From Nitrospinota bacterium (lineage in GTDB: Bacteria > Nitrospinota > Nitrospinia > UBA9942 > JAHJSF01), in contig JAHJSF010000009.1 in assembly GCA_018830405.1 (NCBI GenBank), positions 1-8,965 of the forward strand: a DNA stretch of 8,965 nt. The letters run 5' to 3'. Shown here one piece after another: positions 228 through 7,125 of this stretch. A model generated the notes under the pieces. It had not been told where the DNA came from. It saw only the letters and a list, made by a program, of their open reading frames with translations, and made no database searches. Numbering within the stretch: position 1 is the first letter of the stretch; each line of letters starts with the position of its first letter. The translations under genes and the position numbers were made by a program.

Positions 228-458
228 TTAGGAATGTAGGGGCGAACCAATTCCCTCCTTGTCGAGAGCAAGCTCGTAGGAGAGGATTGTTTTAACGTTC
301 ATCTTCTTTGAGGCATTAAGAATCTCTATGCCGACGATTTTATCGTCTGATGTTGTATCTAAATTGACCCCCTCGGACATCTCAACAACCCCATCAGGTT
401 TCTGATTGCCTAACTTAATATAGATGGCATCAGCCTCGGTATCATATTGAACTTTCAT
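228..458 (-). CDS. DUF2283 family small protein
   Basis: This 76-residue protein has the DUF2283 signature. The N-terminus 'VQYDTEADAIYIKL' is followed by a Glu/Val strand and 'VNLD', then 'DKIVGIEILNAS' at about residues 39-50. The family is a small beta-rich fold of unproven function, often encoded beside DUF4258 or other RelE-like small proteins. The ATG overlaps the stop of the upstream DUF4258 gene by 4 bases (ATGA, 455-458), so the two are translationally coupled. A purine-rich GGGAGG lies just upstream inside that gene. Known: such pairs are often listed as putative toxin-antitoxin or defence-associated modules. Inferred: this protein would be the antitoxin-like partner. No DNA-binding motif is visible, so that role is a guess. 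The last residues are probably not conserved, because the gene runs into repeat-like sequence. Confidence 0.85.
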   Translation of the reverse strand: MKVQYDTEADAIYIKLGNQKPDGVVEMSEGVNLDTTSDDKIVGIEILNASKKMNVKTILSYELALDKEGIGSPLHS

Positions 459-682
459 TTCTCCCTCCCTTTCTTCAAAGGATAGCTGGTTACTACTGTT
501 GCTGTATCCCCTTCAACGGAAACAACAATCTTTAATGGATATTCAAATCCTGCAACATTCTTTACGATTTCATGTTCGCCATGCTGTAAATCCATGCCGG
601 TCAGAATATCCAAAATATCTGATTCCGGAATCTGGTAGAGCTTCGCCCTTCTTTTGGCATGTCTTGAGAACTTTATCTCCAC
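455..682 (-). CDS. DUF4258 family small protein
   Basis: This 75-residue protein begins with GTG at 682-680, supported by AGGAGA five bases upstream. The motif 'FSRHAKRRAKLYQIPESDI' (residues 5-23) is typical of DUF4258: a His and several Arg/Lys, then a short helix. A C-terminal strand 'TATVVTSYPLKKGR' resembles the end of RelE/ParE-like folds. DUF4258 proteins are small and basic, and are often found in toxin-antitoxin-like pairs, but few have been tested. The gene is first in a two-gene unit and overlaps the DUF2283 gene by 4 bases. If it is a RelE-like nuclease, the conserved His and Arg residues would be the functional candidates. That role is inferred from family and context only. Confidence 0.85.
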   Translation of the reverse strand: MEIKFSRHAKRRAKLYQIPESDILDILTGMDLQHGEHEIVKNVAGFEYPLKIVVSVEGDTATVVTSYPLKKGREK

Positions 683-707: not shown

Positions 708-859
708 ACTTATTTCTACAGAATACTCACGCGGAGACCATAAAAGTTTCTACTCTTTTTAAGGTGTCATTCCACGATTTAATCGGGGAATCCAGCCTGC
801 TAAATTTTTCCCCACTTTATAAAAGGGGGGAGAGGGGGGATTTGAAATTGTTTTCTTAC

Positions 860-887
860 TCCCTTTCTTGCCCGTCCAAGAAAGGGA
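860..887. repeat. Perfect hairpin repeat, copy B
   Basis: An 11-bp perfect stem (860-870 with 877-887) has loop CCCGTC, identical in loop and stem core to copy A at 169-202. The flanks match too: 'ATTTGAAATTG' before it, and 'AAAAAGAATACGCCGCCTCCCC' type sequence after it. Confidence 0.8.
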
Positions 888-919
888 AAAAGAATACGCC
901 GCCTCCCCATTTTTTTAAC

Positions 920-1010
920 GGCCTGGAATAACGGTTGGTCTCGGAGCCTAAAAAACTCGCTTCGCTCAGACAGCTTTAGGCTTATTTCCTCAACCAACCT
1001 ATTCCACGCC
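920..1010. repeat. Large imperfect hairpin, copy B
   Basis: The outer arms GGCCTGGAATAACGGTTGGT (920-939) and ACCAACCTATTCCACGCC (993-1010) pair with one 2-base bulge and one mismatch. Inner arms GCCTAAA (946-952) and TTTAGGC (975-981) pair perfectly around a terminal part containing CTCGCTTCGCTCAGACAG (956-973). The related copy at 2430-2521 keeps the pairing although bases differ. Confidence 0.75.
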
Positions 1011-1096
1011 TAAAAATGAAATGGCGGGATAGAGCCTAACGGCTTAAAAAAAGTGATTTTTCAGGATCTGTTCCCATCTCCGCAGGCAGAAGAAGC

Positions 1097-1550: not shown

Positions 1551-1611
1551 GCCCAACGGTGCTAATCAGCCGCGCGGCCTTTTCACGTCGGCTGAATTAG
1601 CCTGGTTAAGT
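1551..1611 (-). mobile_element. attC: Integron attC recombination site
   Basis: Read on the minus strand, the 61-bp site has an R'' box ACTTAAC (1611-1605, fits RYYYAAC) and spacer CAG. L'' is GCTAATTCAGCCG (1601-1589), followed by a 16-base variable terminal loop. L' is CGGCTGATTAGC (1572-1561), then spacer ACC and an R' box GTTGGGC (1557-1551, fits GTTRRRY). L'' and L' pair over 12 bp with a single extra T in L'', the expected extrahelical base. The spacers CAG and ACC do not pair at any position, as expected for the unpaired central spacer. The orientation given by the extra base agrees with the direction of both flanking genes. The stop codon of the upstream gene lies inside L', as is common in cassettes. 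Confidence 0.85.
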
Positions 1612-2378: not shown

Positions 2379-2429
2379 ATGGTTATTCAGCCCTCCCAAA
2401 GTGGTGCCTCATCTGCCATCTCGTTTTTA

Positions 2430-2521
2430 GGGTTGAAATAGGTTGGGCGAGGAAATAAGCCTAAAGCATGTCTGAGCGAAGCGAGTTCTTTAGGCTCCGA
2501 AACCAACCGTCATTTCAAGCC
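2430..2521. repeat. Large imperfect hairpin, copy C
   Basis: Outer arms are GGGTTGAAATAGGTTGG (2430-2446) and CCAACC-GT-CATTTCAAGCC (2503-2521). Inner arms GCCTAAAG (2459-2466) and CTTTAGGC (2488-2495) pair perfectly. Where copy B pairs TGGAATA with TATTCCA, this copy pairs TTGAAAT with ATTTCAA, so both partners have changed together. Confidence 0.75.
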
Positions 2522-2553
2522 GTTAAAAAAATGAGCAGGCGGCAGGTTCTTTC

Positions 2554-2581
2554 CCCCTTTCTTGACTGAGCAAGAAAGGGG
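2554..2581. repeat. Perfect hairpin repeat, copy C
   Basis: An 11-bp perfect stem (2554-2564 with 2571-2581) has loop ACTGAG. The stem matches copies A and B, with the C-run lengthened and a different loop. Confidence 0.75.
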
Positions 2582-2602
2582 TTTAAAAAAACTGATTTCT
2601 GG

Positions 2603-5892: not shown

Positions 5893-7125
5893 ATGACACC
5901 AACAATATTTAAAATAATATTTCTCCTGGCAATAGTAGTCGAAACGGCTTGGGAGATATTTCTGACCCACAAAAATATAGTTTGGACCAATAAAAATAGG
6001 GGCAAAATCCCTTCCTACCTGGCCGGGAAAACGAGCAGTGATGAGTTAACCAAGAGTGCAGACTATTTGGCAGCCAAAGGGGTCTTGGCTACCTATGAAG
6101 GACTCTATAATCTGGTCATTATCTTCGCCGTCATCCTCTTCGGAGTTATAGGTACAATAGATAGCTTCTTGGCCCCGCTCGGCAACATCTATCTTAGGGC
6201 AGGGATCTTCTTTTTTCTGATAACCGAAATCCAAAACATGCTCAACCTCCCCTTCTCCATCTATCGTACCTTTGTTATTGAGGAGCGGTTCGGGTTCAAC
6301 AAAACCACCCCTGAACTTTTTTTCAAAGACCTCGCCAAAGAAATGATTGTCGGCATCCTGGTTACAATTCCCCTACTCCTCGGGGTAGTTTGGTTTATAT
6401 CTGAATACAACCTCTGGTGGCTCTACTCTTGGGTTTTGATACTATCCTTCTCCCTCTTTATGACCTGGCTCTACCCGATCATCATCGCCCCCCTGTTCAA
6501 CAAATTTACCCTGCTACCGGATGGAGAACTAAAGAATTTGATAAAGGAACTGGCCGAAAAGCTTGGTATCTCAATAAAAGAGATTAGGGTTATGGATGCC
6601 AGCCGAAGGAGCGGTCATTCAAACGCCTATTTTACCGGCTTCGGAAAGGTGAAGAGAATTGTCATATTCGATACCCTTATTGAGATACTAAACAACAAAG
6701 AACTTCTGTCGGTTCTAGCCCACGAGTTGGGGCACTTCAAAAAGAGGCATATCTTAAAGAGGATCTTTTTATTACAAATCCTCCTCCTGGCCGGACTTTA
6801 CCTGGCCAGTCTGGGAATAGGGTTCGATTGGGCATATAAAGGCTTGGGGTTGAACATAAACAACTGGTCAGCCATAGTCGTCTTTGCCCTTGTGGCCCCA
6901 AGGCTTACCTTCTGGTTCACCCCCCTATCGAGTTGGCATATAAGGTCGCACGAGTTTGAGGCGGACAGTTATGCCAAGGAGATCATAGGGACAGGGGAAC
7001 ATCTTCAATCTGCCCTTATCGCCCTTGAGAAAAACAACCTTAGCAATCCAGAACCTGACCCCCTCTATAAGAAGTGGTACTATTCCCACCCAACGGTCGG
7101 GGAGAGGATAGATGCCCTTTCTTAA
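5893..7125 (+). CDS. Ste24-type M48 membrane metalloprotease
   Basis: The family cleaves peptide bonds inside or near membranes. The eukaryotic members process CaaX prenylated proteins, while bacterial ones probably act in membrane-protein quality control. At 410 residues it is full length. An N-terminal membrane domain has hydrophobic segments at about 6-20, 72-92, 101-112, 151-170 and 178-200. The protease domain follows. 'SRRSGHSNAYFTGFG' (237-251) is diagnostic of Ste24. 'HELGH' (277-281) supplies two zinc ligands and the catalytic Glu278, and 'HEFEAD' (353-358) supplies the third ligand, Glu354. Two more segments lie at about 290-307 and 326-340. No residue is missing. The ATG has no SD, but no better start is evident and 'FKIIFLLAIVVETAWEIFL' fits the family N-terminus. 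It lies last in the plus-strand unit after the DUF374 gene. Confidence 0.92.
   Translation: MTPTIFKIIFLLAIVVETAWEIFLTHKNIVWTNKNRGKIPSYLAGKTSSDELTKSADYLAAKGVLATYEGLYNLVIIFAVILFGVIGTIDSFLAPLGNIYLRAGIFFFLITEIQNMLNLPFSIYRTFVIEERFGFNKTTPELFFKDLAKEMIVGILVTIPLLLGVVWFISEYNLWWLYSWVLILSFSLFMTWLYPIIIAPLFNKFTLLPDGELKNLIKELAEKLGISIKEIRVMDASRRSGHSNAYFTGFGKVKRIVIFDTLIEILNNKELLSVLAHELGHFKKRHILKRIFLLQILLLAGLYLASLGIGFDWAYKGLGLNINNWSAIVVFALVAPRLTFWFTPLSSWHIRSHEFEADSYAKEIIGTGEHLQSALIALEKNNLSNPEPDPLYKKWYYSHPTVGERIDALS

Follow-up and report, generated by a model that had tools for sequence, protein, structure and literature searches.

A lone integron attC site and its probable single gene cassette on a contig of an uncultured Nitrospinota bacterium

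Single orphan cassettes of integrons are named SALINs (PMC9229058), and cassettes have been reported to insert at non-classical attG sites (Loot et al. 2024, as cited in PMC12901181 and PMC12444791). By default, IntegronFinder 2 calls a CALIN from two attCs up, and its description grants that single attCs can be true (PMC9024848). Here, we describe a locus in a draft genome of the phylum Nitrospinota (a 1.42-Mb bin of 185 contigs, 87% complete) that stands closest to the SALINs. The window, which is the whole stretch of 8,965 nucleotides analysed, makes up the entire contig C44. It holds a single attC and no IntI, as a SALIN does; the integron integrase of this genome lies on a separate contig, C76. 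One attC on the contig falls short of the two or more nearby attCs of a CALIN. A complete integron is not seen either, as intI and a candidate attI lie together on C76, where no attC was found.

The attC site and its relatives

The attC site occupies positions 1551–1611 of the minus strand. In the direction of that strand it consists of the R'' box ACTTAAC (1605–1611), a spacer CAG (1602–1604), the 13-nt L'' GCTAATTCAGCCG (1589–1601), a loop (1573–1588), the 12-nt L' CGGCTGATTAGC (1561–1572), a spacer ACC (1558–1560) and the R' box GTTGGGC (1551–1557), with the predicted cut point between 1557 and 1556. The two boxes fit the consensus RYYYAAC and GTTRRRY of R'' and R'. L'' and L' make a stem of 12 pairs with one extrahelical T in L'' (1595 or 1596), and the CAG/ACC spacer pairs at no position. 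All parts of the architecture named in an earlier, sequence-only reading of this DNA are therefore present.

Several lines of evidence set this hairpin apart from chance. Our own attC finder scores the site at 15.0, a value that 500 Markov shuffles of the window failed to reach (best 13.1), and folded as DNA the site is stabler than its shuffled versions (z = -2.7). A covariance model, R1, was built from eight rows with the window's site left out; two of its rows were entered by hand, namely an aadA-type attC and a site of a related genome, G007, minus its long loop. R1 gives the window's site 62.0 bits on the minus strand (E = 4.0e-13 genome-wide) and 18 bits on the plus strand, which settles the orientation. 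It is also the direction of the genes, as the sequence-only reading had deduced from the extra base, and the site thus withstands the covariance-model check which that reading had proposed, run here with a model of our own. A search of Rfam at the site returned no match. In an alignment of nine attCs, 86.7% of the cells pair in register and 23–38% when the alignment is slid, part of the excess being expected because the structure was taken from one of the aligned sequences; eight stem pairs are altered on both sides. The shuffles, the covariation, the independent model and the near-identity to known attCs described below all contradict a hairpin that arose by chance or has nothing to do with integrons, and the probability of such an origin is negligible. 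Judged by its sequence, 1551–1611 is a genuine integron attC site, and its recombination by IntI is predicted.

A plasmid search with an 86-base query around the site matched nine records, with attCs at the top. Five places on Desulforapulum autotrophicum pHRM2a match it and are at most 87% identical across 60 nt; this plasmid carries a long array of short genes, lnu(F)/linG among them. An attC of E. coli JML285_P1 (83% identity) lies in the intI1-qacEdelta1 interval of a class 1 integron, where it belongs to the final cassette ahead of qacEdelta1, and one of Thiolapillus pTBH10 is 82% identical. In all three plasmids the matches have the orientation of the window's attC. The attCs of pHRM2a and JML285_P1 are like the window's site in stem, bulge position, orientation and identity (82–87%), but they sit in arrays or beside intI1, whereas the window's attC is in neither setting. 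As a side observation, the long attC array of pHRM2a (2583–21077) has no annotated intI within the stretch shown; a block of ~5.7 kb is duplicated in it, and it also carries a gene for lincosamide resistance.

The cassette and the neighbouring genes

The gene upstream of the attC, gene 2 (1566–2282, minus), encodes 238 amino acids from a GTG start that follows AAGGAG. Its stop, at 1566, lies inside the site, within L', as had been claimed, and its last 14–15 residues (KLNQANSADVKRPRG) are encoded within the attC. By reading, the protein has one hydrophobic stretch followed by a probable coiled coil. No convincing relative was found in plasmids, in phages, in viral contigs or in the 76 further genomes from the phylum, and one marginal match at 26% came from those 76 genomes. 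Matches to IcmQ, GspM and CARF_TM were considered and rejected; they are marginal, below the cut-off where the library has one, and look like chance similarity of coiled coils.

An integron cassette should begin with bases (TTRRRY) that complement the R'' box of its own attC. Therefore, the left end was placed at A^TTAAGT (2310–2316, minus; A at 2316; ^ marks a junction or cut throughout), since TTAAGT is the complement of the R'' ACTTAAC. This motif stands 33 nt 5' of the GTG of gene 2, with 0.05 such matches expected by chance in 60 nt. The proposed cassette, 759 bp on the minus strand, begins with TTAAGT at 2315 and ends with the G at 1557, next to the cut, and the attC is its right end. 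At 2261–2286 a dispersed REP-like motif, AAGACCTGMCCC, runs into the beginning of the coding sequence of gene 2; it has nine copies, and its reversed control has none. By reading, copies on contig C26 flank a gene resembling a RAYT transposase. Because a genome-resident motif lies in the start of gene 2, the 5' part of the cassette may have been altered.

Downstream of the cut point, gene 1 (1097–1525, minus) starts after 31 nt and encodes a lipoprotein-like protein of 142 amino acids. Its relatives are scattered over Rivibacter (73%), Nitrospirae, Sulfuritalea, Polynucleobacter, Novosphingobium and others; the phylum's 76 further genomes contain none. Base composition differs between the two genes (G+C 51.5% and 38.2%), as had been observed before, and both are accessory genes. 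The sequence-only reading had also asked whether close relatives have the pair as a plain operon lacking the site; those 76 genomes offer no convincing counterpart of either gene for that comparison. The sequence-only reading took both for captured cassettes. At least one of them is, and this is established only for gene 2, which has an attC after it; after gene 1 neither R1 (filters off) nor R2, a second attC model, finds an attC or a remnant of one, and gene 1 may instead be the gene in front of which the cassette landed.

Farther out, a promoter-like sequence, TTGACC-17-TAGAAT (2350–2378, minus), lies upstream of the cassette; it is a weak candidate from a consensus scan (10 of 12), of which 0.5 are expected by chance. 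Both genes lie between two inverted copies of a palindromic intergenic repeat of 176 nt with a sharp 3' end (...AAAATGAGATGGCGG), the left copy at 851–1025 (plus) and the right copy at 2415–2590 (minus). The repeat was also considered as an attC and rejected, as it shows no RYYYAAC...GTTRRRY arrangement by reading and no model match above ~10 bits. Elsewhere in the window, at 228–682 (minus), overlapping small genes, one DUF4258-like (below cut-off) and one of DUF2283, form a toxin-antitoxin-like arrangement.

Integrase and attC sites in the genome and its relatives

The sequence-only reading saw no integrase, and none is encoded on C44, but the genome does contain one: positions 644–1636 of C76 encode an IntI (TIGR02249, 418.9 bits against a cut-off of 265). 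It matches the structure of the Vibrio cholerae integron integrase (2A3V) over its full length, and the catalytic R, HxxR, H and Y are present, the residues being assigned by reading the alignment. From its sequence the gene is intact. A candidate attI, ...ATGGAAAATGTTTCCATCTATTAACACTG^TTAGGC (ending ACTG^TTAGGC; G at ~478, minus), lies upstream, 165 nt from intI. The IntI of G007 is 62% identical to that of C76, and by eye the GGAAA/TTTCC motifs near it, ending CTG^TT, resemble the layout on C76. The neighbour of intI on C76 is a DUF5714/MbdU-like gene that runs off the contig, which ends 643 bp upstream of intI.

The genome was also searched for further attCs, as had been suggested along with the search for intI. 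C44 has none besides 1551–1611, so that the proposed cluster of attCs lacking an integrase gives way to a single attC in a genome with a full-length IntI. This search, which could miss weak attCs because the candidates it scores are limited in number, returned one other site, on contig C104 (9834–9891, minus; 29 bits with R1, and 49.8 bits with R2, which includes this site among its sequences). The C104 site directly follows the stop of malQ, and its right half, GTTATCT, is a non-consensus R' that begins at the end of malQ. The sole minus-strand copy of GTTAGGA is the exact complement of the R'' box TCCTAAC (0.008 expected by chance) and stands 75 nt 5' of a gene for 110 amino acids without a family. 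A second cassette with this gene therefore probably spans ~10448 to ~9840 (minus). The layout is the picture expected of a single cassette at a non-att place, its other side lying near the end of the contig.

Among 77 genomes of the phylum, IntI above the cut-off is found in seven and attCs (R2, E <= 0.001) in 14; the 63 genomes without an attC match serve as a rough negative control for R2. All seven genomes of the window's order have attCs, 2 to 12 each and on several contigs in most. Thus, attCs are common in the order, even where no integrase was found. One member, G001, is laid out classically: two attCs lie upstream of IntI and are oriented opposite to it.

Two further features were seen in relatives. 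In genomes of the order, a recurring cassette-like element of ~120–170 bp without an open reading frame (locus L140, on G006:C26, at 5745, 4896 and 3053; also loci L165, L129, L137 and L159) starts at G^TTCTCCC, preceded by an attC or putative attI, and is mostly a long-stem attC-like hairpin, GCGGAGTTAAGCCG...CGGCTTAACTCCGC, with a non-consensus R'' GGAGAAC; it has matches in five genomes and none in the genome of the window. On G006:C26 a frame of 64 amino acids (6149–6343) resembles the C-terminus of integron integrases and lies beside a putative attI and cassettes; it is possibly a decayed intI.

Origin of the cassette and comparison with known systems

We consider it rather probable that the cassette of gene 2 is a SALIN, inserted by an integron integrase outside attI or a cassette array. 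The integrase would act on the folded bottom strand of the attC and insert the cassette of ~759 bp (2315–1557, minus) at a non-att, attG-like place. The cassette would land directly before the lipoprotein-like gene 1, between it and the promoter-like sequence, and the IntI that this genome encodes on C76 may have carried out the insertion. Without the cassette the flanks would read ...GTTTCTCAAA^TTGGGCTGCACAAACTTACTGGAGGAACCCCATG, and gene 1 would come to lie behind TTGACC-17-TAGAAT; a join without gene 2 would run ...TCTCAAA^TTGGGCTGCAC... into gene 1. With the cassette in place, the promoter-like sequence could drive both genes. The left junction is one match of six bases, preceded by A instead of G, and a close relative with the site empty was not seen. 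As attG-type junctions, A^TTAAGT fits at the left, and TTGGGC at the right could be either the target or another cassette.

The right half raises the question of whether the locus is instead what is left of a longer array, in which both genes were cassettes, co-inserted or remaining from a chromosomal integron, the attC of gene 1 having since been lost, with the repeat at 851–1025 as a possible cause. On either side of the cut the R' box agrees with GTTRRRY, and the TTGGGC that follows the cut conforms to TTRRRY, the consensus for cassettes, as would be the case with gene 1 as a cassette too. The short distance from the cut to gene 1 and its good ribosome site are cassette-gene-like, and relatives up to 73% identical in distant phyla with none in the rest of its own phylum would suit a captured gene. 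The absence of an attC or remnant after gene 1 speaks against this origin. The one candidate for a degraded site, GTTAGGC at 1042–1036, was rejected, as it lies in a stretch that resembles the flank of another copy of the repeat, and none of the relatives of gene 1 that were searched has an attC nearby. An array relic is thus possible but doubtful. A broader reading, also possible but doubtful, is that the genome has an empty or near-empty integron platform, its own IntI having dispersed the cassettes as single genes to non-att targets of the chromosome; in relatives of the order the same scattering together with loss of intI could have left many stray attCs.

The inverted repeats could also mark a composite mobile unit that carried both genes together, resembling a MITE-bounded integron mobilization unit, and the same plus/minus pairing within 2 kb is found around a SIR2-domain gene (C119) and a gene of no known function (C57). 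Against it, the repeat has 33 matches genome-wide, mostly single, and neither a transposase nor a target duplication was seen. Any such event would be old because the copies are only 84–87% alike. This origin is improbable, though it is compatible with insertion by an integrase and does not exclude it. Farther down in probability stands an assembly or binning error that attached foreign cassette DNA to C44, as might happen in a draft bin of 185 contigs. Repeats of one genome-wide family lie on both sides of the segment, the exact identity between the window's two copies extends over no more than 19 bases, few for an assembly join, and a second attC adjoins malQ on C104, all of which make a misjoin very improbable.

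If the cassette of gene 2 was indeed inserted alone, integron cassettes of this uncultured lineage can become isolated chromosomal genes with junctions that are partly readable. The case is of value for its clean attC, for the lineage and for a genome that encodes an intact integrase at another place. As in a CALIN, the attC has no neighbouring intI; because the default of two attCs would skip such sites, counts of stray cassettes in draft genomes are probably too low. With an integron mobilization unit, in which a pair of MITEs surrounds cassettes, the window shares inverted repeats around the cassette region, but its repeat belongs to an intergenic family of 33 copies without evidence of transposition. 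The likeness to attG insertion lies in a cassette outside attI and attC whose junctions would be fused to the target, with the difference that the base before TT is A, not G. With SALINs the locus shares a lone orphan cassette in the chromosome, an attC adjoining an open reading frame and no integrase alongside; it differs in coming from an uncultured lineage outside the well-studied gammaproteobacteria and in a genome with an intact IntI, on whose own contig no attC was found. Stray single cassettes are already known, and the one in the window adds a new, well-supported example from a lineage that is poorly known.
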